Shown one piece after another: positions 21,773 through 39,527 of a DNA stretch of 43,365 bases. The stretch is from contig PFDR01000056.1 in NCBI GenBank assembly GCA_002772545.1, forward strand, positions 1-43,365. The letters run 5' to 3'. The notes below the pieces were generated by a model. That model searched no databases. It saw only the letters and a list, made by a program, of their open reading frames with translations, and was not told the origin of the DNA. The position numbers and the translations under genes are program-made. Source of the stretch: Candidatus Peregrinibacteria bacterium CG10_big_fil_rev_8_21_14_0_10_49_10. GTDB lineage: Bacteria; Patescibacteriota; Gracilibacteria; Peribacterales; Peribacteraceae. How positions within the stretch are numbered: position 1 is the first letter of the stretch; every line of letters starts with the position of its first letter.

Positions 21773-23983
21773 CTACTTCTTGTTCCAGAGCGTGTAGTGC
21801 ACCTGGCCAAGTGCCATGGAAGCATTGCCAATCTTTCCGACAATACCATCGACCGTCTGGAAACAAACAATGTTCTCCGGCTTCTGCAGCATAATGGCCG
21901 AGTAGTTATCGGAGTAGTCGGCGTTCAGACAATCAAGATAGGTAATGGCCGCGTAGTCCTGCTTGGCAGGTCGTGCAATCTTGGTCGCAAGAGCATTTGC
22001 TCCCCACGGTCTGTTAATGCCAATCTGGCCGTTATTGGTCTCGTAGCTAATGGAAAAGTCATACTGGGTTCCGTACGATGTGCTATTCTGCGCGGAAAAA
22101 TCATAGTAGGTCCAGTATGATTTCAACATCAGAAGGTTTGCCTTCTGTGTGGTCGCCGGAGCAGTGTCTGCCGTATAAAGCTCCTCGCAGGAACCAATAC
22201 AGCAACGTGGTTCTTTGGATGTGCGCTTATTTAACCCGCTGCAGACGGTATCTGCTGAACACACCTTTCCATCGTAGTCCGAACATTCTTTGTAGACACA
22301 GTAGCCGCTCTGGCACTTTTGGTAATCCGGACAGGAAATGCCTGCACAGAGATCCTGGACAGCAATCTGCGTGCCGACACATTTGCCAGTCTTGCACTGA
22401 TCATTTTCTGTATCGGCATTGCCATCGTCACATGCCATTCCAACATTGACCGGTGAAAATACACAGTCACTCGTCTTGGTATCGCACGTATCGGTCGTAC
22501 AGGAATTATGATCATTGCACACTTTTACCGTACCGGTGCAAGCTCCCTTCGTATACACGTCATAAATGGTGCAGGCGTTTCCATCATCGCAGGGTGTGCC
22601 GTCCTTCGGCGGTTCCTGTGCAATGGAAGAAGCGGACGATGCGCTGGATGCAGCGCCGGAACACTCCTGATACTGAGTCTCTCTTGTAGCACCACCCCCC
22701 GTGCGAATGCTTCCATCGGCATTGTAGATGAGCACACCTCGCTGAAAGCGACTGGCGCTGTTTCTCGCATCTGCACAGTAACGGGCTTCCAGTGCTTCGT
22801 ATTCACCGGCACATCGTTCCCGAACAGAGGGAATGTCGTAGTCTTCCGTCAGGTGAAGTTTAACGTAGCCGTCTCCCAGTTCCGGGTCTCCTGCTCTTGG
22901 TGAACCACCGTTATCCGCATTGACGATACAGGCGGCTTTTGTGACTACAGGTGCTGCAGCATGTCCTGCATCTGCATCCATTGCATTTGCATCGTATCCC
23001 TGAAGGTTAGAAATCCCCTCTTCTTCAATTTTATTGAGGATGCGGAACATGATGACTGCCACAGCTGCTCTATTGAGGTCATCATCCACACCAAAGTCCC
23101 CTGTGGGGTACCCTGTCATAAGACCCGTAAGATTCGTGACGGCGGTATCTTTGAAAGAAGGATGACCTACGGGAACATCATCGAATACCTGTGTACCATC
23201 CGGACGGGTTCCAATGGCACTCAGCAGCGTTTCACCCAGCGTTCTGTTCATGAATCCCGCAGTCACACCGCGGGGCGATGCGCTGTCCGGAGCAAGAGTT
23301 GCACCATCCGAAGACCACCCCTGCCTGCGAAATGTGCAGGCTGGAAGAAATGCATAGTGGTCGGATGCAACGTCGTTGTACACCTTCATACATCCCGTGG
23401 GTTCCTGAATAAGATTTGCGTAGAGCAGAATGCGATGCAGGAGCGTAATCACCTGACCATTCGTCACCGGATCACCGGGACCGTAACGACCATCGTCATA
23501 GCCTTTTACAATCCCCTTCTGGTGCATACGGACAATGGCTTCAAACGCCCAATCGGGCAGCTCATCTTTGAATGGATTCACCAGAACTTCTTTTTTCTCT
23601 TCTATGAGAATGTCTGCAACGTCAATGAATTTGCCATCTCCCACCTGCGCTTGCACGCTCGTAGCCCCCGCAACGTCACCTGCGGTAAATGTGCAGGTTT
23701 TCGCGTTGCTGCAGGCTCCGAGTGTACCCATACCCTCTTTAAGCAGGGACCAGTCAGCACGCACCGGCATAGTACGAGTGCCGTAGTCGCCTTCCGCGCT
23801 CAGGCGGATGCTTTCGCCGACACCGACGGTAGCCTTGGCAGGAGTGATAGAAATGCCCACAAGGCCATCCGGCACACTGGAAACCGACGCGGTAATGGAT
23901 TGGACCGTTACCAGGGCAAAAGCGAAGACAGCGATACAACTGAAGAGTCCTGCGAGCCGATTTTCGTTCTTGGTCTTTAACAT
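21773..23983 (-). CDS. SLH-domain surface protein with CTDC-type Cys repeats
   Basis: A 736-residue exported protein. Hydrophobic N-terminal segment (~10-32), then an Ig-like region (GISITPAKATVGVGESIRL ... RADW). Three S-layer-homology repeats follow (~137-185, 200-250, 266-316; markers GYDDGRYGPGDPVTNGQV and MTGYPTGDFGVDDDLNRA), which usually bind cell-wall polymer. After a Ser/Ala linker comes a Cys-rich zone (~470-600) with CDDGNACT, CNDHNSCTTDTC and CDDGNADTEND, resembling Dictyostelium CTDC repeats. The C-terminal ~120 residues form an unknown domain containing VGKIGNAS, shared with the upstream paralogue. Probable cell-envelope protein. Confidence 0.82.
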   Translation of the reverse strand: MLKTKNENRLAGLFSCIAVFAFALVTVQSITASVSSVPDGLVGISITPAKATVGVGESIRLSAEGDYGTRTMPVRADWSLLKEGMGTLGACSNAKTCTFTAGDVAGATSVQAQVGDGKFIDVADILIEEKKEVLVNPFKDELPDWAFEAIVRMHQKGIVKGYDDGRYGPGDPVTNGQVITLLHRILLYANLIQEPTGCMKVYNDVASDHYAFLPACTFRRQGWSSDGATLAPDSASPRGVTAGFMNRTLGETLLSAIGTRPDGTQVFDDVPVGHPSFKDTAVTNLTGLMTGYPTGDFGVDDDLNRAAVAVIMFRILNKIEEEGISNLQGYDANAMDADAGHAAAPVVTKAACIVNADNGGSPRAGDPELGDGYVKLHLTEDYDIPSVRERCAGEYEALEARYCADARNSASRFQRGVLIYNADGSIRTGGGATRETQYQECSGAASSASSASSIAQEPPKDGTPCDDGNACTIYDVYTKGACTGTVKVCNDHNSCTTDTCDTKTSDCVFSPVNVGMACDDGNADTENDQCKTGKCVGTQIAVQDLCAGISCPDYQKCQSGYCVYKECSDYDGKVCSADTVCSGLNKRTSKEPRCCIGSCEELYTADTAPATTQKANLLMLKSYWTYYDFSAQNSTSYGTQYDFSISYETNNGQIGINRPWGANALATKIARPAKQDYAAITYLDCLNADYSDNYSAIMLQKPENIVCFQTVDGIVGKIGNASMALGQVHYTLWNKK

Positions 23984-24022: not shown

Positions 24023-26743
24023 TTATTTTTTCCAGGTTTTAAACTCCACCGAGGAGGTACTCAACTTTCCGACTGCAGCCACAGTACCGTCTTTCGCCTG
24101 TACACAGAGCACCACAGAATTGGGTGAACTGGTAACACTGTAGCTAAGCGCATTTGCGGTACCGCTCCTTGTAAGCGATGCACTGCATTCTTCTTTGGTC
24201 ACATATTCAAAAGGTTTTGAGGGGCTTAACGCAGCCACCGTTCCTCCCCCGTTCTGCTGTACAATCAGATTGTAGTATGTGTACGTGGAACAAGTGGTTC
24301 TCTTGCGGAAACCACCGGACGTGTGGCAACTGCGTGAGGAATTTGTTTTTACCGTTGCTGAAATATCGGAGGTACTGTCTGCCGTACCATCCTTGGTATT
24401 GCCCGTAAGCAGATCAATGAATGTGGATACTGATCCAACACGAACCTCTCCGCTCTTTAGAATATCGGCAGTATTCACAGGACAGGAGACGTATTCGCAA
24501 CCCATGCTGCCGCATCCGCTGGAAGAAACACCATTGTCGCTGTTAAAGGTAAGCACACCGCGTTGGACCTTTGGATTCACACCAAGCGCACAGTAGTCCT
24601 TGAGGAGAGTATCATAGACATTCTGCGTACAGGCAGTACGGAGACCTGCTATGTCATTCACGCCTGGAATATGTCTCATGACGTAATCTTTTCCCGTATC
24701 CGGCACATCACCACGGGGAGCATTACCGGCACGAAGGATGCAGACACCGCTCACCTTCGCGCCAACGAGAGGAGCGGAAGAAGACGAAGGAGATGAGGAA
24801 GATGAAGAAGACGAAGGAGATGAGGAAGATGAAGAAGACGAAGGAGATGAGGAAGATGAAGAAGATGAAGAAGCAGGCCGAGGCGCGATGGGTTGGCTGC
24901 TCCATACCTGGAGTGTCACTTCTGCATCGTACGGCGCAAAGCTTCGCACCGTAGCATCGCCGATCTTGCCAACGACTCCTCCATCCGTGCGGAAGCACAC
25001 CGCACCCGACAGTTTGTTGAAACTGACATAATAATCACCATTCGGAAAATCAATCAGACGCGCGCGACAGTTCTCCTCCGTCACCGCGGCAAAGCTGGGG
25101 GCGGGAAGAGCAACGATCTTCGTCACGCGATACCCTCCCCACCCTCCGGGGGGAAGCACATTGAAGTTCGGTTGGATGAGACTGAAGTTAAGATCGTAAT
25201 CTTTGCTGCTGTAGTTACGCACGAATGCGTTCGTCCTGACATCATAGTTTCCTCCACCGATGCCACGGATGCGCAGCGCATACGATCCATCGGCATGCGC
25301 GGTCGCCGTGAGTTCCTGGACGGGTGCGGAAGAAGAGGACAAGGAGGACAGAGAGGATAAGGAGGACAAGGAGGACGAAGAGGATAGAGAGGACAGAGAG
25401 GACAAGGAGGACGAAGAGGACGCCGCAACCTGTGGCACCGGAATGGCAGTGCCGGCGCATTTGGCGTCGGCGGTGCATACATCCTGCTCCGTGCCCGCAA
25501 TACCGTCGTCACAGGCGGAACCCGTATTGGTCACGGAAGAACATGTCCCCGTCGAAGCACCGCAGGAATCCGTCGTACAGACGTTCCCATCATCGCAGGG
25601 CTTGGGAATCCCCTGACAAATACTTTCCTTGTACACGTCGTTGACGGTACAGAGATTTCCATCGTCGCAGGAATCGCCGTCCTTCGGAGTATCGGGTGCT
25701 TTGCTGGAAGGAGCCGCTGCGTGGTCTGAGCCTTCAGCGGCGCCGGCATCGTATCCCTTCAGGGTAGTAATACCCAGAGTCTCCACGTTATCTAATACAC
25801 GGAACATCACCACGGCCGCTGCAGCCCTGTTCAGATCGTCATTCACACCAAAATCACCAGTGGGGTATCCCGTCATAATGCCTGTAGCGTTGGCTGCAGC
25901 AGTATCGGCAAAGTTTGGATGAGAAACGGGAACATCATCGAACTGCTGTCCCTGCGGAGCCGAAGACCCCTTGGCACTCAAAATGGTATCTCCCACCACA
26001 TGACTGATAAACGCAGCCATTGCTCCACGGGAAGCTGGGCTGTCGGGACGGAAGAGGCCATCTGCAGCAGACCACCCCTGTCGCTTAAAAAGGCAGGCTG
26101 GTTTAAAAGCATAGTGCCCCTGTGGAACATCGTCATAGACCTGTTCACATGCCGTCGGCTCATCCACAAGCTTGGCATGCCGTAATATACGTTCGAGCAA
26201 TGTAATAACCTGGCCATTGGTCACGGAATCTCCGGGACCGTACCGACCGTCGTCATATCCTTTTACAATCAATTTTTTGTACATGCGCACAATTGGTTTA
26301 AATGCCCAGTCCGGCAACTCATCGGTAAAAGGATTCACCAGCTTCTCCTCCTTCTGCTCAATGGTAATGGTTGCCTCATCCACAAAAACACTGTCTCCCA
26401 CCTGCGCCTGGATGGTTGCCGCACCGGTTACCTCGCCGGCAATGAACGTACAGGATTTTGCATTGGTACACTTCTCTAGAGTGCCTAAATCTGCGCCTTT
26501 CAAGAGGAACCAATCGGCACGCACCGGCATAGTCCGAGTACCGTAATCCCCTTCCGCACTAAAGCGGATGGACTCGCTGACAGAGACAGTTGCCTCTGAA
26601 GGTGAAATGGAAATTCCTTCCAGACCCTCCGGAACAGTACTGGAAACAGAAGCAGTAATCGTATTCACGGTAACGAACACTGCAGCAAGTGTGAGTGCGG
26701 AGCCGCACACGGCGAACCCTTTGGCACTTCGAATATTCTTCAT
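24023..26743 (-). CDS. SLH-domain surface protein, paralogue with serine-repeat linkers
   Basis: A 906-residue exported protein, tandem paralogue of the next gene. It has the same order: hydrophobic N-terminus, Ig-like segment (GISISPSEATVSVSESIRF), three SLH repeats, CTDC-like Cys region (CDDGNLCTVNDVY, CDDGNVCTTDSCG), then serine linkers of the type SSLSSLSS and SSSSSSSSP around an internal domain with VGKIGDATV. A second, Cys-containing C-terminal half has RGVLTFNSD and a repeat of the terminal domain. The ATG at 26743 is preferred because the signal peptide follows directly; the ATG at 26788 adds 15 polar residues. The serine linkers differ between the paralogues, suggesting repeat expansion. 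Confidence 0.82.
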   Translation of the reverse strand: MKNIRSAKGFAVCGSALTLAAVFVTVNTITASVSSTVPEGLEGISISPSEATVSVSESIRFSAEGDYGTRTMPVRADWFLLKGADLGTLEKCTNAKSCTFIAGEVTGAATIQAQVGDSVFVDEATITIEQKEEKLVNPFTDELPDWAFKPIVRMYKKLIVKGYDDGRYGPGDSVTNGQVITLLERILRHAKLVDEPTACEQVYDDVPQGHYAFKPACLFKRQGWSAADGLFRPDSPASRGAMAAFISHVVGDTILSAKGSSAPQGQQFDDVPVSHPNFADTAAANATGIMTGYPTGDFGVNDDLNRAAAAVVMFRVLDNVETLGITTLKGYDAGAAEGSDHAAAPSSKAPDTPKDGDSCDDGNLCTVNDVYKESICQGIPKPCDDGNVCTTDSCGASTGTCSSVTNTGSACDDGIAGTEQDVCTADAKCAGTAIPVPQVAASSSSSLSSLSSLSSSSSLSSLSSLSSLSSSSAPVQELTATAHADGSYALRIRGIGGGNYDVRTNAFVRNYSSKDYDLNFSLIQPNFNVLPPGGWGGYRVTKIVALPAPSFAAVTEENCRARLIDFPNGDYYVSFNKLSGAVCFRTDGGVVGKIGDATVRSFAPYDAEVTLQVWSSQPIAPRPASSSSSSSSSPSSSSSSSSPSSSSSSSSPSSSSAPLVGAKVSGVCILRAGNAPRGDVPDTGKDYVMRHIPGVNDIAGLRTACTQNVYDTLLKDYCALGVNPKVQRGVLTFNSDNGVSSSGCGSMGCEYVSCPVNTADILKSGEVRVGSVSTFIDLLTGNTKDGTADSTSDISATVKTNSSRSCHTSGGFRKRTTCSTYTYYNLIVQQNGGGTVAALSPSKPFEYVTKEECSASLTRSGTANALSYSVTSSPNSVVLCVQAKDGTVAAVGKLSTSSVEFKTWKK
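24777..24857. repeat. Three perfect 27-bp tandem repeats (Ser-Pro linker)
   Basis: Three identical 27-nt units run head to tail (24777-24803, 24804-24830, 24831-24857), followed by a partial unit. They encode repeated Ser8-Pro blocks on the minus strand and keep the frame. Perfect identity suggests recent slippage. Confidence 0.9.
25329..25421. repeat. Purine-rich low-complexity tract (Ser/Leu linker)
   Basis: About 93 nt of imperfect 9-nt words such as GAGGACAAG and GAGGACAGA. Read on the minus strand they encode the SSLSSLSS linker between the Cys-rich region and the next domain of the SLH protein. Confidence 0.8.
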
Positions 26744-26781
26744 TAACAGAGTAGGAAAATAGGTATGTGTTTTTATATTTG

Positions 26782-26805
26782 CCGACAATACGTCGGAGTC
26801 ACTCC
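26782..26805. promoter_or_regulatory. Paired small inverted repeats between divergent SLH and Nramp-like genes
   Basis: CCGAC-aatac-GTCGG (26782-26796) overlaps GGAGT-c-ACTCC (26795-26805). The position in the 169-nt divergent intergenic region suits an operator or leader hairpin; no regulator can be named. Confidence 0.4.
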
Positions 26806-31531: not shown

Positions 31532-32050
31532 ATGCGACAGGTCATACTTACAGATACGAAAGGCAACCAAACGGGTCTCTCGGAGATCATGCAAGCACAT
31601 ACCGGAGAAGGAAAACTGCACCGTGCATTTTCGGTTTACATCTTCCGCAAGCAAGGAACAGAGATACTTATGCAAAAGCGCAGCAGCAAAAAGATGCTTT
31701 TCCCTCTTCTATGGGCAAATACCTGTTGCAGTCACCCCTTCCCCGATGAGGCAATGATGGACGCGGCTCAGCGTAGGCTGCAGGAGGAATGTGGCCTCAC
31801 CTGCGACCTTAAAGTAGCTGGAACCCTTGTGTATCGCGCAGAGGATCCGGAAGGCAGAGGTGTGGAGCATGAACACGTCACTCTTCTTAGAGGAGATGAT
31901 CCCGTTTCCGAGCCCAAGCCCGACTCTGAAGAGATAGAAGAAATAAAATGGATGCCGGTAGAAGATCTCCTCACAGATATGGAAGAGCACCCCAAAAAGT
32001 ACGCACCCTGGTTTCACCTGGGACTGCAAAAACTTCTTCTCATACTATGA
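31532..32050 (+). CDS. idi: Isopentenyl-diphosphate delta-isomerase, type 1
   Basis: A 172-residue Nudix-fold enzyme that interconverts IPP and DMAPP. Seen: QKRSSKKMLFPLLWANTCCSHP with the active-site Cys (65/66), the Nudix-like helix AAQRRLQEECGL, and VEHEH (111-115), where the catalytic Glu lies. Type 1 uses a divalent metal and no flavin. It is the first gene of the mevalonate cluster; its stop overlaps the uppS start (ATGA). Most MEP-pathway bacteria can do without an isomerase, whereas mevalonate-pathway organisms need one, in agreement with the cluster. Confidence 0.93.
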   Translation: MRQVILTDTKGNQTGLSEIMQAHTGEGKLHRAFSVYIFRKQGTEILMQKRSSKKMLFPLLWANTCCSHPFPDEAMMDAAQRRLQEECGLTCDLKVAGTLVYRAEDPEGRGVEHEHVTLLRGDDPVSEPKPDSEEIEEIKWMPVEDLLTDMEEHPKKYAPWFHLGLQKLLLIL

Positions 32051-32751
32051 AAAACGAGCAGAAACTGCACATTGCCATTATTCCGGACGGCAACAGGCGC
32101 TGGGCTAAGACGCATGCCCTGCACCCCTGGGACGGCCACAAAAAAGCCATTGAAAACTTCCGCTTACTTACGGAATGGTGTCACGACGACCCTCGTGTCT
32201 CTGTGCTGACCATTTGGTGTTTTTCCACGGAAAACTGGAAACGGGACAAGAGGGAAGTGGATATGCTTATGCAGCTTCTTGAAGTACATCTGCAAAAAGA
32301 GCGGGCTCTTTTGGAAAAGAACAATACGCGGTTTGTGCACTCCGGCAGAAAAGACCGCATACCCGCCCAACTGGCCAAACTCATAGAGGATGTAGAAGAG
32401 GAGAGCAAGAACAGAACGGCATCTACACTGCATCTTGCTATTGATTACGGCGGGAAGGATGAACTACTGCGTGCCATGCAAAAAATGGCGACGAGCGAAC
32501 GAGCGAACGAGCGAACAAATAATACCATCGCAGAGAATATATTTTGTTCGTTCCTCGACCATCCGGAACTGCCGGATATTGATCTCATTGTTCGAACATC
32601 AGGAGAAAAACGCACCAGCAACTTCTTTCTGTGGCAGTCAGCCTACAGCGAGTGGTCTTTTGTGGAGAAGAAGTTCCCCGATTTCACCGCAGAAGATCTC
32701 GCAAACGAAGTAGATGCGTTTATGACACGTTCCAGGAGGTTCGGAGGATGA
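32047..32751 (+). CDS. uppS: Isoprenyl (undecaprenyl) diphosphate synthase, cis-prenyltransferase
   Basis: A 234-residue enzyme that condenses IPP units to the long polyprenyl carrier for wall and glycan synthesis. Motifs: IIPDGNRRWAK near the start, FSTENWKR, and the C-terminal block LIVRTSGEKRTSNFFLWQ through FVEKKFPDF. The usual Met before DGN is Pro. A variable loop before the C-terminal motif contains SERANERTNN, encoded by three tandem copies of GAGCGAAC (32493-32516). The ATG at 32047 sits in ATGA with the idi stop; its own stop overlaps the mevalonate kinase start in the same way. Confidence 0.92.
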   Translation: MKNEQKLHIAIIPDGNRRWAKTHALHPWDGHKKAIENFRLLTEWCHDDPRVSVLTIWCFSTENWKRDKREVDMLMQLLEVHLQKERALLEKNNTRFVHSGRKDRIPAQLAKLIEDVEEESKNRTASTLHLAIDYGGKDELLRAMQKMATSERANERTNNTIAENIFCSFLDHPELPDIDLIVRTSGEKRTSNFFLWQSAYSEWSFVEKKFPDFTAEDLANEVDAFMTRSRRFGG

Positions 32752-33599
32752 CAACGGAATCTTTTGCCCCCGGCAAAATCATCCTCACCGGCGAGTACGC
32801 CGTGGTCTTTGGACACCCCGGCATTGCCGTGCCTGCGTCTCTCGGTATGCGGGTAACGTATGAGGAAGATCTTGCAAGACCCGATCTCACCATACGGTGG
32901 AAGGGTATACAGGGCGGTGAGGAATGGACGCAGTACCTGCAAGGAATTGTGGAAGAATGCAGTGAGGAACCCGATCAGCTCTTCTACGGAACATTGACCG
33001 TGAATAACGCACTCCCTTTGGGAAAAGGCATGGGTTCCTCCACCAGCCTTGTCGTCGCAACGACAAAGGCACTGCTCGGGGAAGACTGCGAAACGAAAGC
33101 TCTTGCAATAGAAAATACCGTAAACCCCGGTCATAGCGGCATCGACTTTCGCGTTATTTGGAATGCCACACCTCTGTACTTTAAAAAGGCCAGTGAACCG
33201 GAAGCATTCCTTCTCCCAAAGGACCTCCTCGCAGGTGCTCTCCTTATAGACACCGGGGCACCCAACGAAACCACACCCGAACTTGTTTCCTGGGTGGAAG
33301 AACGCAAAGAACAGCTTGCTGGGCCACTGGAAACAATTGGCCGATGCACGGAACAGCTGAAGGCGGGAGAGGATTTGGGGGCAATTTTGTGGGAGCACCA
33401 TCGCGCACAAATTGCGCTTGGTGTGGTACCTCTGAATGTCCAGGATCTTATAGAAGCCATTGAGGATGCCGGCGGTAGCGCAAAGGTCATTGGGGCTGGA
33501 GGCAAGACGGGTGGTGGTGGTATGGTGCTTGCCGTGCATCAAGATTCAGAATCGTTACGAAATGCGATTCCTGAGACATTTCCCGTTCACATGCTATGA
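32748..33599 (+). CDS. Mevalonate kinase (GHMP family)
   Basis: A 283-residue GHMP kinase that phosphorylates mevalonate at O5. Motif 1 is SFAPGKIILTGEYAVVFG, motif 2 PLGKGMGSSTSL (~90-101), the catalytic-Asp region GHSGIDFRV (Asp133), and motif 3 GAGGKTGGGGMV near residues 257-268. Neighbours (idi, uppS, decarboxylase, HMG-CoA reductase) support mevalonate over other GHMP substrates; a phosphomevalonate kinase of the same superfamily cannot be wholly excluded from sequence alone. It overlaps both flanking genes by 4 nt, so translation is probably coupled. Confidence 0.88.
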   Translation: MTTESFAPGKIILTGEYAVVFGHPGIAVPASLGMRVTYEEDLARPDLTIRWKGIQGGEEWTQYLQGIVEECSEEPDQLFYGTLTVNNALPLGKGMGSSTSLVVATTKALLGEDCETKALAIENTVNPGHSGIDFRVIWNATPLYFKKASEPEAFLLPKDLLAGALLIDTGAPNETTPELVSWVEERKEQLAGPLETIGRCTEQLKAGEDLGAILWEHHRAQIALGVVPLNVQDLIEAIEDAGGSAKVIGAGGKTGGGGMVLAVHQDSESLRNAIPETFPVHML

Positions 33600-34609
33600 G
33601 TGCTACTGCCATATCCACACCAAACATTGCGCTGATCAAATACTGGGGAAACCGATCTAACGAGTTGCGCCTGCCCGCTGCCGACTCACTCTCCATGACG
33701 CTGAATACGCCAACTGTGGAAATAACTGTTGACTATGCGGAGGACCTCATCATCCGATCCTATGAATCGGATGGTGCAGAACGGGAAATGACTGAAAAAC
33801 ACATGGCAAGATTTGCAAAACACCTGGAGCTGACCAGGCAATACCTCACACAGATTGGAGCAGAAGATGCGATACCCGCATCTGTACAACTCACCATCCG
33901 CTCCGGCATTCCCCCCGGTGTAGGCCTTGCTTCTTCTGCAGCCGTTTTTAGCGCAGTCGCAAAAGCGTATGTGGGACTCATCGCCTCTTCTATCATATTA
34001 ACAGATGAACAGACGAGTGTGATTGCACGCCTGGGTTCCGGCTCTGCTGCACGCAGTATTTTTGGAGGATTCGTCACACTCGAAAATACGGGGAGAAATG
34101 GTATGGACGGCGCCGTTGCTAAGCAGGTTGCTTCCGAAGATCACTGGCTCCTGCACGACATTGTGATCATCCCCAGCTATGATGAAAAAAAGGTAGGTTC
34201 TACCGAAGGGCACGCCATTGCACAGACCAGCCCTCATTTTATGGAGAGGATTGAAGCCATTGGTTCTTATCGACAAAAGGATTGTATAGATGCCATCCTC
34301 GCAAAGGATTTTGAGAAGTTACAGAAGGTCGCAGAGGAGGACAGCCTGAATATGCACCATGTGATGGAGACGAGTAGTCCCCCACTCCAGTACCTGACGC
34401 AGGACACACATCGGATTGTTGATGCAGTAACAAGACTGCGTGAAGAAGGGCATCTTCCAGTCTTGTACACGATGGATGCCGGACCGACCGTGCATCTTCT
34501 CTGCACAGATGAGGCGAGAATGCAGATCGTGGACTTCGCCCACGCGCAAGAGGGCTGCACTATTTTTGAGGCATCGGTTGGTTCAGGTTCAAAGATTATT
34601 CAGAAATAA
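33596..34609 (+). CDS. mvaD: Diphosphomevalonate (or phosphomevalonate) decarboxylase
   Basis: A 337-residue GHMP-fold decarboxylase. Seen: IALIKYWGNR with the conserved Lys, DSLSMTLNT, the phosphate loop PPGVGLASSAAVF, SGSAARSIFGGFV with the conserved Arg, and MDAGPTVHLL with the catalytic Asp. These residues are shared with enzymes that decarboxylate mevalonate diphosphate to IPP, and also with the phosphomevalonate decarboxylases of some Chloroflexi and archaea. Because no phosphomevalonate kinase gene is visible, the true substrate is open. It ends the first half of the cluster and is followed by a hairpin. Confidence 0.9.
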   Translation: MSATAISTPNIALIKYWGNRSNELRLPAADSLSMTLNTPTVEITVDYAEDLIIRSYESDGAEREMTEKHMARFAKHLELTRQYLTQIGAEDAIPASVQLTIRSGIPPGVGLASSAAVFSAVAKAYVGLIASSIILTDEQTSVIARLGSGSAARSIFGGFVTLENTGRNGMDGAVAKQVASEDHWLLHDIVIIPSYDEKKVGSTEGHAIAQTSPHFMERIEAIGSYRQKDCIDAILAKDFEKLQKVAEEDSLNMHHVMETSSPPLQYLTQDTHRIVDAVTRLREEGHLPVLYTMDAGPTVHLLCTDEARMQIVDFAHAQEGCTIFEASVGSGSKIIQK

Positions 34610-34685: not shown

Positions 34686-35861
34686 ATGAGAGTAATGGAT
34701 CTCCGCACTCTCCCCGACGGTCTCTCTCCTTCTCAGCGTGCTGCAGAACGCCGAAAGAGGATCGAAGCAGAAACGCACAGAGACATCTCTCTTACAGACG
34801 ATACTGATGATCGACTCGGTATAGCCGACGAGAAAAACTGTGAGCAGATGTTTGGTACGGTTCCCCTTCCTGTCGGGTATGCAGGTCCGCTTACCTTTAC
34901 CTGTAGCAGCGGCGAAAGGACGACTGTCCACCTACCACTCGCAACGACAGAGGGCGCACTGGTAGCTGGTGTGAATCGTGGGTGCAAAGTACTTTTCGGA
35001 ACGAACGTACACTCTACATCTTTCTACCACGGTATGTCCCGTTCCATCGCATTGGCAGTACCTGAAAAAAGCCTCCAGGCATTCATAGGTGCATTGGAAA
35101 GTACACAAGGCGATTGGTACAAGGCTGCGGAAACAACAAGTGCACACCTCAAGATAAAACGGCATGAAGTGGACCAGCAGGATACGTATGTCTTCGTCAC
35201 CCTATGGTGTGACACGGATGAAGCCATGGGTATGAACATGGTGACCATTGCCGCACAGGCCGCAGGGGACTGGATCACCGAACATCTGCATGAGTACTCC
35301 CCTGCTCTCATCACTGTTGCGGGAAATGTGGATAGTGATAAAAAACCGAGCAGGCGCACACAGGAGAAAGGACGTGGATACGAAGTAACGGCAGAAGTAC
35401 TGCTTCCCAAAGACGTTGTAGCATTGGTGCTCAAAACAACGGCAGTAGATATGAAACGCACCGCTGACGCAAAATTGAAAGTGGGATCAAGTATTGCAGG
35501 TGCCATAGGGTCCAATCTCCACGCGGCAAACGTGATTGCGGCGCTCTACCTCTCTACAGGACAGGATGCTGCACACGTAGTAGAAGGTTCACTGACGGAT
35601 ACAACGGTGGAATTACGAAAGGAAGGACTGAACATAGCAGTGCGATTGCCTGCCATTCTCGTCGGCATACGCGGGGGGGGCACTGCGCTTCCGGCACAGC
35701 AGCAGTGTCTGCAGATGCTACTCAAAGAAAAGACATCGCTCCACCCCTGTGCACAACTTGCAGAATCCATTGGTACGGCAGTGCTCGCTGGGGAAGTATC
35801 CTTGTTGGCAGCTCAGGCAAACCAGACGCTGGCGAAAGCACACAGGGAATTGGGACGTTAA
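34686..35861 (+). CDS. mvaA: Hydroxymethylglutaryl-CoA reductase, class I type
   Basis: A 391-residue enzyme that reduces HMG-CoA to mevalonate. Catalytic residues by family match: Glu89 in TTEGALVAGVNRG, Lys219 in SDKKPSRR, Asp294 in GQDAAHVVE and His386 in KAHRELGR. The nucleotide motif DEAMGMNM (178-185) and LPVGYAGPL near the start are present. The pattern is that of the class I (eukaryote/archaea-type, NADPH) enzyme rather than bacterial class II. An alternative start is the ATG at 34695. The gene ends directly at the left inverted repeat of the four-helix-bundle insert. Confidence 0.93.
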   Translation: MRVMDLRTLPDGLSPSQRAAERRKRIEAETHRDISLTDDTDDRLGIADEKNCEQMFGTVPLPVGYAGPLTFTCSSGERTTVHLPLATTEGALVAGVNRGCKVLFGTNVHSTSFYHGMSRSIALAVPEKSLQAFIGALESTQGDWYKAAETTSAHLKIKRHEVDQQDTYVFVTLWCDTDEAMGMNMVTIAAQAAGDWITEHLHEYSPALITVAGNVDSDKKPSRRTQEKGRGYEVTAEVLLPKDVVALVLKTTAVDMKRTADAKLKVGSSIAGAIGSNLHAANVIAALYLSTGQDAAHVVEGSLTDTTVELRKEGLNIAVRLPAILVGIRGGGTALPAQQQCLQMLLKEKTSLHPCAQLAESIGTAVLAGEVSLLAAQANQTLAKAHRELGR

Positions 35862-35921: not shown

Positions 35922-36299
35922 TTATCGCCTCTCACGACAGGAGTTTGCGATACGAGAGAATATGCATGTCAATTCCTGACACTCACGCCATAAAGTTCTT
36001 AACTCTTCTTTTCGTTCAGGATGCGCAGCTGCAAGCAAGCGTAAGTGATGCTTTGTCTCCTTGCACTCTTTCTTCACTATGAAAATTTTGTTCTGAAAAT
36101 CTTTCTTCGAACATGCCCCATTCGCTTCCATGTAGTTAGCGCCTATACTGGCAGAAGAACCGATAAGCTGCTCCACAATACGTCGATTGATAGGAGTTTG
36201 CTTGATAGATTTGCACAGAATTATGACGCGTTCACCAAAGACAGCCGTTCTCTCCTCAAGATCATAGATTTTCCCCATTGCTGAAACATTAGTTGCCAT
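35922..36299 (-). CDS. Four-helix-bundle protein (23S rRNA IVP/S23 family)
   Basis: A 125-residue helical protein of the family first seen in intervening sequences of 23S rRNA. The core is visible: INRRIVEQLIGSSASIGANY followed by MEANGA, KDFQNKIFIVKKECKET and a C-terminal Arg-rich helix. Relatives such as Avd form pentameric bundles that bind nucleic acid. Here it is free-standing, opposite in strand to the mevalonate genes, and enclosed by perfect 25-bp inverted repeats. MGKIYDLEERT (ATG at 36278) is an alternative start. Its function is unknown; it seems to be an insert in the cluster. Confidence 0.85.
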   Translation of the reverse strand: MATNVSAMGKIYDLEERTAVFGERVIILCKSIKQTPINRRIVEQLIGSSASIGANYMEANGACSKKDFQNKIFIVKKECKETKHHLRLLAAAHPERKEELRTLWRECQELTCIFSRIANSCRERR

Positions 36300-36455: not shown

Positions 36456-37487
36456 ATGAGCAAATCAGTAATTGTGGGCTTTGGCATGTATCTTCCAAGC
36501 AGCCGAATTAAGACTGCTGCTATCGCCGAGCACTGGCAGCAAAATGCTGTTTCTATTCAAAACGGACTTGGCATACGGGAAAAGACAGTACCCGGCGAAG
36601 GAGAAGACTCCTTTACCATGGCATTCGAAGCCGGGAAGCAGGCTATAGAAGTGTCTGGATTGCGTTCGTCACAGATTTCTGCAGTATTTGTGGGCTCCGA
36701 GAGCCACCCCTACGCTGTAAAACCTACAAGTGGGATGGTGGCGGACGCACTGGAACTTGACCCCTTCTGCCACTGTGCAGATTTGGAATTCGCCTGTAAA
36801 GCGGGCACGGCAGCCATGCAGATAGTGGATAGTATGGTGAGGGCGAAACAAATACGCTTTGGGATGGCCATAGGGAGTGATACCGCACAGGCTGCTCCCG
36901 GAGATGCTCTGGAGTACACGGCAGCAGCCGGTGCGGCTGCAGTCATACTCGGACCCGAACGTGCCAAGAATGCACTATGTCGCATAGAACAGACGCTCTC
37001 CTTTACTACAGACACACCCGACTTCTGGCGTGCGGCAGAAGAGAGGTATCCCAGCCATGCAGGACGATTCACCGGTGAACCGGCATACTTTCACCACATG
37101 CGTGAAGCCATCAACGGCATACTGGAAACGACTTCCTGCAGTGTGCAGGAAATTGATCATGTCATCTTGCATATGCCAAACGGAAAATTTCCGGGCAAGA
37201 TTGCCAAAGAATTTGGTTTCACAAAGGAACAAATGCAGCACGGGTTTATTGTTCCGCATATCGGCAATACCTATAGCGCCTGTTCACCCCTGGGTCTTGC
37301 CCATGTCTTGCAGGAAGCAAAAGAAGGTGACACACTTCTTCTTGTGTCCTACGGTTCCGGTGCGGGCTCGGACGCTTTCCTTCTGACCATGTTGCGGGAC
37401 GGTGTGCGTCTCCCGCAGGAAAGAGGAGAACTGCAATACCTCACCTACAGTCAGTATAACAAACGCACTGCCGCGCTCCACGCATGA
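36456..37487 (+). CDS. mvaS: Hydroxymethylglutaryl-CoA synthase, archaeal type
   Basis: A 343-residue thiolase-fold enzyme that condenses acetyl-CoA with acetoacetyl-CoA. VGSESHPYAVKPTSG holds the catalytic Glu, DLEFACKAGTAA the nucleophile Cys114, and HMPNGKFPGKIAKEFGF with VPHIGNTYSACSP the later His/Asn regions. The EFACKAGT wording and the gene order synthase-thiolase-DUF35 match archaeal HMG-CoA synthases, which work in a complex with the thiolase. Its stop overlaps the thiolase start (ATGA). Confidence 0.92.
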   Translation: MSKSVIVGFGMYLPSSRIKTAAIAEHWQQNAVSIQNGLGIREKTVPGEGEDSFTMAFEAGKQAIEVSGLRSSQISAVFVGSESHPYAVKPTSGMVADALELDPFCHCADLEFACKAGTAAMQIVDSMVRAKQIRFGMAIGSDTAQAAPGDALEYTAAAGAAAVILGPERAKNALCRIEQTLSFTTDTPDFWRAAEERYPSHAGRFTGEPAYFHHMREAINGILETTSCSVQEIDHVILHMPNGKFPGKIAKEFGFTKEQMQHGFIVPHIGNTYSACSPLGLAHVLQEAKEGDTLLLVSYGSGAGSDAFLLTMLRDGVRLPQERGELQYLTYSQYNKRTAALHA

Positions 37488-38599
37488 ACAAAGATATTTT
37501 TCTCATCGGATCCGGCCAGACACGCTTTGGAGAGTGGTGGGAAAAGAGCCTTCGTGACCTTGCGGGCGAGGCAGTGGAAGCCGCACTGAAAGATGCCCCC
37601 TGCACCTCGCTGGATATCGATATGGTTATCGTTGCAAATATGATCGCGGAACGCACCAACGGGCAGGCGCATCTCGGTGCACTTGTTTCTTCCCTGTTTC
37701 CACACAATCCTCCCGCACTGCGAGTGGAATCTGCCTGCGCTTCGGGTGCGGTGGCTCTGCATACCGCCTGCGGATTGCTGGAGAGCGGACGGGCACAGAC
37801 TATTGTAGTTGTAGGGGTGGAGAAAATGACCGATGTGTCCACCGAGGAAGTTGCAGATGCCCTCATGGGAGCCGCAGACAGCGAAAAAGATGCACCGTGT
37901 GGCCTTACCTTCCCCGGCATTTTTGGACTCATCGCAAAGCGTTACATGCATGAGTACCACCTCACCAGAGAGAGACTCAACCATGTAAGCTCTGCACACC
38001 ACCGCAATGCTCTCCACAATCCCTTTGCACAATTTCGGAAGGAAATACCTGCCGAACACATTTCCCAAAGCCCGGCAGTCGCTGACCCTCTGTGTATGCT
38101 CGACTGCTCTCCGGTAAGTGATGGCGCAGCGGCCTGTATTCTCTCCACAGTAAAAGAGAGTGATATCAAAATTGCAGCATCACAACTGGCAAGTGATGCG
38201 GTAAGTCTTACGGAGCGTGCAACCATTACCTCCTTTCCCGCCACAAAACGGGCAATGGAAAAGGCACTTGCAGAAGCAGATATAGACCGCAAATCTGTTT
38301 CCCATCTTGAAATCCATGACTGCTTCTCCATAGCGGCTGTCATCAATGTAGAAGACCTCGGGTTTGCAGAGCCAGGAAAAGGAGTGGAACTCTATGAACA
38401 GGCAGATCCTGTTCCGAGCATCAATGCCAGCGGGGGCTTAAAGGCCTGTGGTCACCCAGTAGCCGCCACGGGTATAAAGCAGGTAACGGACATGGCGAAA
38501 CAGCTCCGCACTTCCGGCAGTCGTTTTGGTCTTACACAGAACTTTGGCGGTGCCTGTGCCAGTTGCGGCATTCACATCCTTGAACATACGCATGTCTAA
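37484..38599 (+). CDS. Acetyl-CoA C-acetyltransferase, archaeal/SCP-like thiolase
   Basis: A 371-residue thiolase that makes acetoacetyl-CoA. The nucleophile is Cys85 in VESACASGAVAL; HDCFSIAAVIN and GGLKACGHPVAATG carry the later active-site His. The sequence style (GSGQTRFGEWWEKSLRDLAGEA at the start, in the SCP-x/archaeal manner) differs from bacterial PhaA/AtoB. In archaea this enzyme and HMG-CoA synthase share a CoA site and are bridged by a DUF35 protein; here the next gene begins with a DUF35 OB-fold and overlaps by 8 nt. Confidence 0.9.
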   Translation: MNKDIFLIGSGQTRFGEWWEKSLRDLAGEAVEAALKDAPCTSLDIDMVIVANMIAERTNGQAHLGALVSSLFPHNPPALRVESACASGAVALHTACGLLESGRAQTIVVVGVEKMTDVSTEEVADALMGAADSEKDAPCGLTFPGIFGLIAKRYMHEYHLTRERLNHVSSAHHRNALHNPFAQFRKEIPAEHISQSPAVADPLCMLDCSPVSDGAAACILSTVKESDIKIAASQLASDAVSLTERATITSFPATKRAMEKALAEADIDRKSVSHLEIHDCFSIAAVINVEDLGFAEPGKGVELYEQADPVPSINASGGLKACGHPVAATGIKQVTDMAKQLRTSGSRFGLTQNFGGACASCGIHILEHTHV

Positions 38600-39527
38600 C
38601 CCCTCTGTCGTTCACAGGGCCAAATCCGCTCGCAAGCAGAAGATGCAGGAAGGAACAATTGTGTCCTTTACGACGGTACGACACCCTCCCGCAGGCTTTG
38701 GAACGAACCCACTGCGTATTGGCTTGATAGCACTGGAAGACGGCTCCCAGGCCATGGGGCAACTGATTGCACCTGCACACGAGGACATACAGATTGGGAG
38801 CAAAGTACGCCCCCGTATGAAACTGCTCCGTGTACAGAAAAACGGGCTGCGCATCTACGACACCGCATACGAACTCTGCGCGGCAAAGCCGGTAGTACAA
38901 GAACAGAAGGTGGAACGGGAATTTCCCGGCTACATCGTGGCTCTGTACGGTCCTTCGGGCGTTGGAAAATCAACGGTGTGCACACTGATGACAAAAGTAC
39001 TGGTGGAGTATGTGGAGAACGTCCCCATTCTTACCACACGTGCAAAGAAGAAGGGTGATGCCGATGAGTACCATTACACAACTGCCGCAGAATTCACCAG
39101 GCTCCGAAAGGACAAGAAAATTATTGCCGCTACACAAATTCCCTCACGTTCCGAGAAACGGTGGTACGGCTACCGGGAAGAAGATATTCAGGCCATATGG
39201 AACAAAGGAAAAATTCCCATTGTTATTACCGAACAACACCTGCTCCAAAACCTCAGCAGTTACTACGGAAGGCGTTCCATTCTCTCCTTCGGCCTGCTTC
39301 CACCCGGTAAGAGCCGCCGTGCCATGCTTTCCCAACTGCTGCATCGGTTGCGTAGCCGTGGACGCGATACAGAAAAACACATTCAGGATCGCATGAAGAA
39401 CGCAGAACACGACTTAGACTTCTTTGAGAAGCGCAAAGAACTCTTTGACCATATTCTGGTGAATGAAGATCTGGATGCGGTCATGGAAACACTCAAGGGT
39501 CATGTGCTGGGTGTGGAAAGAACTTGA
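38592..39527 (+). CDS. DUF35 OB-fold fused to guanylate-kinase-like P-loop domain
   Basis: A 311-residue two-domain protein. Residues ~15-95 look like the DUF35 OB-fold (EGTIVSFTTVRHPPAGFGTNP, GQLIAPAHEDIQIGSKV) without the usual N-terminal zinc ribbon. Residues ~112-310 look like a guanylate-kinase fold: Walker A GPSGVGKS (120-127), TTR (148-150), EYHY (159-162), YGY (192-194) and a lid region around LPPGKSRRAM. The first domain fits the archaeal thiolase/HMG-CoA synthase scaffold. The kinase may be the cell's guanylate kinase, or an unrelated replacement for the missing phosphomevalonate kinase; neither is shown. The start at 38592 overlaps the thiolase end. Confidence 0.75.
   Translation: MSNPSVVHRAKSARKQKMQEGTIVSFTTVRHPPAGFGTNPLRIGLIALEDGSQAMGQLIAPAHEDIQIGSKVRPRMKLLRVQKNGLRIYDTAYELCAAKPVVQEQKVEREFPGYIVALYGPSGVGKSTVCTLMTKVLVEYVENVPILTTRAKKKGDADEYHYTTAAEFTRLRKDKKIIAATQIPSRSEKRWYGYREEDIQAIWNKGKIPIVITEQHLLQNLSSYYGRRSILSFGLLPPGKSRRAMLSQLLHRLRSRGRDTEKHIQDRMKNAEHDLDFFEKRKELFDHILVNEDLDAVMETLKGHVLGVERT

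Follow-up and report, generated by a model that had tools for sequence, protein, structure and literature searches.

A guanylate-kinase-fold protein fused to a DUF35-type OB domain is the candidate second-phosphate kinase in the mevalonate pathway of Peribacteraceae

The alternative mevalonate pathway of Chloroflexi and haloarchaea uses a mevalonate kinase (MVK), a mevalonate-5-phosphate decarboxylase (MPD) and an isopentenyl phosphate kinase (IPK), and it has no phosphomevalonate kinase (PMK). The PMK of animals belongs to the P-loop NMP-kinase-like fold class, and in archaea a DUF35 protein bridges thiolase and HMG-CoA synthase (HMGS). Peribacteraceae are tiny groundwater bacteria. In five complete genomes of Peribacteria described in 2016, genes were present up to mevalonate-5-phosphate and from mevalonate-5-diphosphate on, and the pathway was called 'near-complete' (PMC4736985). 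Here we describe a fusion protein from this family, F, which is predicted from its sequence to fill that published gap.

We analysed a 43,365-nucleotide stretch of Peribacteraceae DNA (the window). Its mevalonate cluster (Table 1) encodes an isomerase (IDI), a polyprenyl diphosphate synthase (UPPS), an MVK-like GHMP kinase (S), a decarboxylase (D1), HMG-CoA reductase (HMGR), an archaeal-type HMGS, a thiolase and F; profile matches bear out the enzymes that a first-pass annotation had listed and add UPPS to them. Between HMGR and HMGS the operon is broken by a gene on the opposite strand (35922-36299, -) for a 23S rRNA-intervening-sequence-type four-helix protein (PF05635). Elsewhere in the window, two adjacent genes (21773-23983 and 24023-26788, both -) encode large paralogous proteins with S-layer homology domains and Cys-rich repeats, the second of which also has Ser-rich low-complexity stretches.

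The gene for F starts with an ATG at 38592, within the end of the thiolase gene (37484-38599; the 8-nt overlap is read in 'ATGTCTAA'), and stops at 39527. The fusion of a DUF35-type OB domain with a guanylate-kinase (GK) domain, as annotated at these coordinates, was confirmed by the open reading frame and by Pfam (OB_ChsH2_C, PF01796, aa 19-76, 44.2 bits, cut-off 27.1; Guanylate_kin, PF00625, aa 116-302, 57.3 bits, cut-off 25.2). Structure prediction, which the first-pass annotation had suggested, gave the same two parts: in the AlphaFold2 model, for which 34 members of the family were used (mean pLDDT 89.8), a short helix at the N-terminus is followed by an OB barrel (21-95), and a linker of low confidence (101-108) leads on to the GK domain (112-310). 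When the model was searched with Foldseek, the best matches were guanylate kinases, at the top yeast GK with GMP (1gky, E=5e-16, TM 0.89 by target length).

Table 1. Coordinates of the mevalonate cluster and of the parts of F in the window
Feature	Position	Strand	Remark
Isopentenyl-diphosphate isomerase (IDI), type I	31532..32050	+	
Undecaprenyl/polyprenyl diphosphate synthase (UPPS)	32047..32751	+	
Short GHMP kinase S, mevalonate-kinase-like	32748..33599	+	TIGR00549 100.7 bits, below cut-off 163
GHMP decarboxylase D1; mevalonate-5-phosphate decarboxylase residues (WGNR, Arg27, GSTEGH); catalytic Asp intact (MDAGP)	33596..34609	+	
HMG-CoA reductase (HMGR)	34686..35861	+	
HMG-CoA synthase (HMGS), archaeal type	36456..37487	+	TIGR00748 379.5 bits, cut-off 353
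Acetoacetyl-CoA thiolase (archaeal-like)	37484..38599	+	
OB-GK fusion protein F, 311 aa; predicted second-phosphate kinase, mevalonate pathway (IPK- or PMK-like)	38592..39527	+	
OB-fold domain of F, aa 19-97, PF01796/DUF35 type, without zinc ribbon	38646..38882	+	matches 6esq_E
Guanylate-kinase-fold (GK) domain of F, aa 112-302	38925..39497	+	
P-loop GPSGVGKST of F, aa 120-128, Lys126	38949..38975	+	
Acceptor site of F; conserved E188/R190 extra to GK	39039..39173	+	

No GHMP-type PMK or IPK had been visible to the first-pass annotation. None lies in the window, and the search of the whole assembly that it had proposed (1.25 Mb, 98 contigs, 89.65% complete) found a guanylate kinase gene (gmk) and neither of the other two. 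The only GHMP kinases of the assembly are the two encoded in the window, with no third over the cut-off; its single member of the AA-kinase family is PyrH, encoded beside frr, and no IPK was detected. The animal-type PMK family (PF04275) had no match in F or elsewhere in this genome, and the GHMP-type PMK model TIGR01220 was not among the families matched by F. Relatives of 98-100% completeness (e.g. G037, G062, G081, G104 and G224) have two GHMP kinases and one AA-kinase each. As far as this assembly and the relatives were searched, no hidden PMK, IPK or animal-type PMK was found, and F is the sole candidate that emerged for the second phosphorylation. Considering all the evidence given below, F very probably is the missing second-phosphate kinase, made of a GK fold and a stripped-down DUF35 scaffold domain.

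We compared the GK half of F with yeast GK, whose phosphate-binding and guanine-binding residues are established, in an alignment with 34 homologues. The residues that bind the acceptor phosphate are kept in F (R150, K153, Y160 and Y192, equivalent to yeast R38, R41, Y50 and Y78), and so are the P-loop Lys (K126) and the LID arginines (R252, R256 and R267). The guanine contacts, in contrast, are replaced (S34 by I146, encoded just upstream of 39039; E69 by A179; S80 by Y194; D98 by I212), and they are gone in all aligned members of the family: Y194 is invariant among these, the D98 position is I or V throughout, and of the D98/D100 pair only the D100 position is still acidic. The separate canonical gmk keeps S39, E73 and D105. 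Because the guanine pocket is lost while the P-loop, LID and acceptor-phosphate residues are kept, F should act as a kinase on a phosphomonoester that is not GMP, and the residues of the rebuilt pocket suggest that this substrate should have a small, largely apolar body.

The OB half resembles the archaeal scaffold. A profile of the family's OB domains matches the DUF35 chain of the archaeal thiolase/HMGS complex (6esq_E, positions 18-90, E=2.1e-6), in line with the scaffold-type DUF35 domain proposed in the first pass. In each mevalonate-positive Peribacteraceae genome searched, the OB domain of F is the only PF01796 domain, and the mevalonate-negative genomes have none. All structurally characterised DUF35 proteins carry at the N-terminus a zinc ribbon of the rubredoxin-like type, which has four Cys (PMC6996347); F has about 18-20 residues before the barrel, with no Cys among them in the window protein and none conserved in the family. 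If the OB half replaces the bridging DUF35 subunit, the kinase of F would be anchored to the thiolase/HMGS complex; the genes of the three proteins are adjacent.

D1 indicates in which order the two last steps may occur. A decarboxylase had been annotated in the window and is present, although it carries the residues of a mevalonate-5-phosphate decarboxylase (Asn21, Arg27 and His196), like the Anaerolinea MPD. This enzyme (6n0x) is the nearest to D1 (177 bits, against 128 bits for the next natural protein). According to the alignment, the engineered 6n0z differs from 6n0x by N to K in 'WGNR' and by H to M in 'GSTQGH', and D1 has N and H at these places. Homologues of D1 have N21 and R27 in 24/24 cases and His196 in 25/25, the Asn at the position of Lys21 and the His at that of Met in the diphosphate-type decarboxylases (MDDs). 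In a published table, all MDDs have Lys21 while MPDs have another residue there, and the MPD types have Arg at 27 (eLife 2013, PMC3857490), a pattern with which D1 agrees at both positions; mutagenesis has switched the specificity of this enzyme class to the diphosphate type (JBC, PMC9254496). D1 nevertheless passes the MDD model TIGR01240 mevDPdecarb (194 vs cut-off 171). In f6, a sister family of the same class with a divergent mevalonate pathway (G047, G138; L044, L045, L046, L047), a His-type MPD-like decarboxylase is encoded with an IPK-like AA-kinase beside it. The MPD-type residues of D1 suggest that decarboxylation probably comes before the second phosphorylation, which would make F an isopentenyl phosphate kinase.

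We tentatively favour F as a GK-fold IPK in an alternative mevalonate route; we give this somewhat less than an even chance and hold it to be likelier than F as a PMK. S would phosphorylate mevalonate to mevalonate-5-phosphate, D1 would decarboxylate this to isopentenyl phosphate, and F would then form isopentenyl diphosphate (IPP) with the gamma-phosphate of ATP. The guanine pocket of the GK half would have been remodelled to a small, mostly apolar one, and the OB half would stand in for the DUF35 subunit that bridges the archaeal thiolase and HMGS. With slightly greater reserve, we propose that an IPK evolved from the GK fold and was fused to a scaffold subunit, the last phosphorylation being anchored to the first condensing enzymes. 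What the sequences show is the architecture of F, its residue pattern, a lack of detectable competitors, its co-occurrence with the pathway and the synteny of its gene; its substrate, activity and complex formation are inferred. A full-text search of the available literature library brought up no paper describing an IPK of the guanylate-kinase type. The earlier proposal that the fusion replaces PMK holds in so far as F belongs to the mevalonate pathway and is the only candidate found for its second phosphorylation, but PMK activity itself is doubtful, as the D1 residues point to isopentenyl phosphate.

Full-length F was found in 49 of 288 genomes of the class (42-74% identity), all from the window's family (f1, Peribacteraceae), and this recurrence led us to reject a chance fusion or an assembly artefact; the 14 matches in 380 genomes of the phylum were all from Peribacteraceae as well. 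In a survey of distribution against the mevalonate genes, also suggested in the first pass, F was present in 48/48 sampled HMGR-positive Peribacteraceae and absent from 7/9 HMGR-negative ones (Fisher p=1.4e-7, relatedness ignored). In all 32 clusters read, the gene for F comes immediately after that for thiolase, with the two on the same strand. The two HMGR-negative exceptions are G172, where two GHMP kinases remain, and G017, which has the GK half only. This stand-alone half (L043:7498-8256, -), with its active site intact, lies inside a ribosomal-protein/secY/adk gene cluster in a genome without HMGR, GHMP kinases and UPPS, and fits neither IPK nor PMK activity well; since UPPS is also absent, we did not count it in favour of an IPK acting in salvage. 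Among the matches listed in a species-level scan, full-length relatives of F came from Peribacteria, Peribacteraceae and one record titled Candidatus Kaiserbacteria (L079), which is either a mislabelled Peribacteraceae genome or a case of horizontal transfer of the cluster.

Eight family members have, in place of D1, a homologue without the catalytic Asp (D2, 'LNTGQ' for 'MDAGP'), and six of these eight also have an extra MVK-like kinase (K). L079 has both in a wholly colinear cluster (S-K-D2-HMGR-HMGS-thiolase-fusion-IDI). D2 is nearest to the Anaerolinea MPD and is the sole decarboxylase homologue found in these genomes and loci (L037:7776-8750, L038:11603-12577, L039:870-1838, L040:10288-11259, L041:8660-9760, L055:489-1463, L057 from 175, L070 from 8798 and L079:4450-5418); the D2 of the eight members and of L079 has a basic residue (Lys or Arg) at position 21. 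In five of the six members with K and D2, F is retained with its acceptor residues lost (R150 to C/H, Y160 to T/L/V/H, R190 to C/G/S and Y192 to C/A), and two of these five have lost the P-loop Lys too. The 28 other full-length homologues that were aligned show a mean retention of 98.7% (lowest value, 94%) in the conserved GK columns, among them those of the P-loop Lys, the LID arginines and the acceptor-phosphate residues. Decay was confined to genomes with K and D2 (Fisher p=2.2e-5, relatedness ignored), and the five genomes that show it fall into two separate parts of the HMGS+thiolase tree. Judging from this pattern, the kinase of F seems to be under selection together with D1 and relaxed once K and D2 take over. 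This is a tendency only: we rejected a simple replacement of F by K and D2 as a rule, because G154 and L079 have both and keep F intact or nearly so. In G099 and G272, D2 occurs without K alongside an intact F, which counts against the IPK assignment and fits a PMK at least as well.

The nearest competitor is F as a GK-fold PMK, which would convert mevalonate-5-phosphate and ATP to mevalonate-5-diphosphate, to be decarboxylated by D1 to IPP. Although rather unlikely in our judgement, it is kept because the Anaerolinea MPD reportedly takes the diphosphate too and because R190 might serve a carboxylate. The pathway gap, the co-occurrence and the phosphate-site residues agree with it equally, D1 is over the MDD cut-off, the extra conserved pair E188/R190 might bind a carboxylate or hydroxyl, and D2, whose residue 21 is Lys or Arg, is found alongside intact F. 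Against it, the remodelled pocket is mostly apolar, and D1 has the residues of the Anaerolinea enzyme and not the Lys21 of all tabulated MDD classes (PMC3857490). The roles of the two kinases might also be exchanged, with S as the PMK and F acting on mevalonate itself or another metabolite: S is below the MVK cut-off (100.7 vs 163), has a PMK-like 'GEY' for 'GEH' and is retained next to the MVK-like K in six genomes. This is quite improbable, as S scores much higher with the MVK model (100.7 bits) than with PMK models (21 bits), and F keeps the residues that bind the acceptor phosphate in GK, which makes it unlikely that F accepts an alcohol without a phosphate.

Two further explanations would take F out of the second phosphorylation altogether. 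If the GK half were idle or regulatory, like the guanylate-kinase-like domains of MAGUK proteins, F would be a scaffold only and D1 or S would carry out the missing step. The match of the OB half to the scaffold DUF35, of which it is the genome's sole copy, would suit this, as would the five genomes that keep F after losing acceptor and partly P-loop residues; yet the high conservation of the GK columns in the 28 other homologues, and the restriction of decay to genomes with K and D2 at two places in the tree, imply a catalytic role elsewhere, and we regard a mere scaffold as improbable. Finally, F might be a kinase for GMP or another nucleoside monophosphate that came into the operon by happenstance, as its best structural matches are guanylate kinases. 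The first-pass suggestion that it is simply the cell's guanylate kinase fails on the canonical gmk encoded in the same genome (198 aa, contig C71) and in most relatives, and on the loss of the guanine contacts in all aligned members; F also scores 80.2 bits with the guanylate kinase equivalog TIGR03263, under its cut-off of 160.45. The single-contig relative G127 (L169-L234) shows no other gmk, but the usual gmk neighbours are missing there as a block too, which may reflect a deletion or an assembly gap. A nucleoside monophosphate kinase is therefore very improbable.

Should F be a GK-fold IPK, the mevalonate pathway of the Peribacteraceae would take a form not known from any other group, with a new fold for the phosphorylation of isopentenyl phosphate, and the IPP-forming kinases would include one derived from guanylate kinase. 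For the whole family this would close a core-pathway gap that has stood since the first complete Peribacteria genomes, and an archaeal DUF35 scaffold would be seen to carry a catalytic domain. Pathway searches in CPR bacteria with the known PMK and IPK models would have overlooked F.

F shares its fold, its P-loop, its LID arginines and the residues for the acceptor phosphate (R38, R41 as Lys, Y50 and Y78) with guanylate kinase (PF00625; yeast 1gky), and differs in its replaced guanine contacts, its fused OB domain, its place in a mevalonate operon and the presence of a separate gmk in the genome. With animal PMK it shares the P-loop NMP-kinase-like fold class, although it has no PF04275 match and its nearest fold matches are guanylate kinases; from IPK (NF040647) it differs in having a P-loop GK fold and not the amino-acid-kinase fold. 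Like the archaeal bridging DUF35 protein (6esq_E), F has an OB domain and a gene adjoining those of thiolase and an archaeal-type HMGS, whereas it lacks the rubredoxin-like zinc ribbon and has a kinase domain attached. The cluster as a whole resembles the alternative pathway of Chloroflexi and haloarchaea in its MVK-like kinase, its MPD-type decarboxylase and the absence of a PMK, but in the place of an amino-acid-kinase-fold IPK it has the GK-fold fusion.
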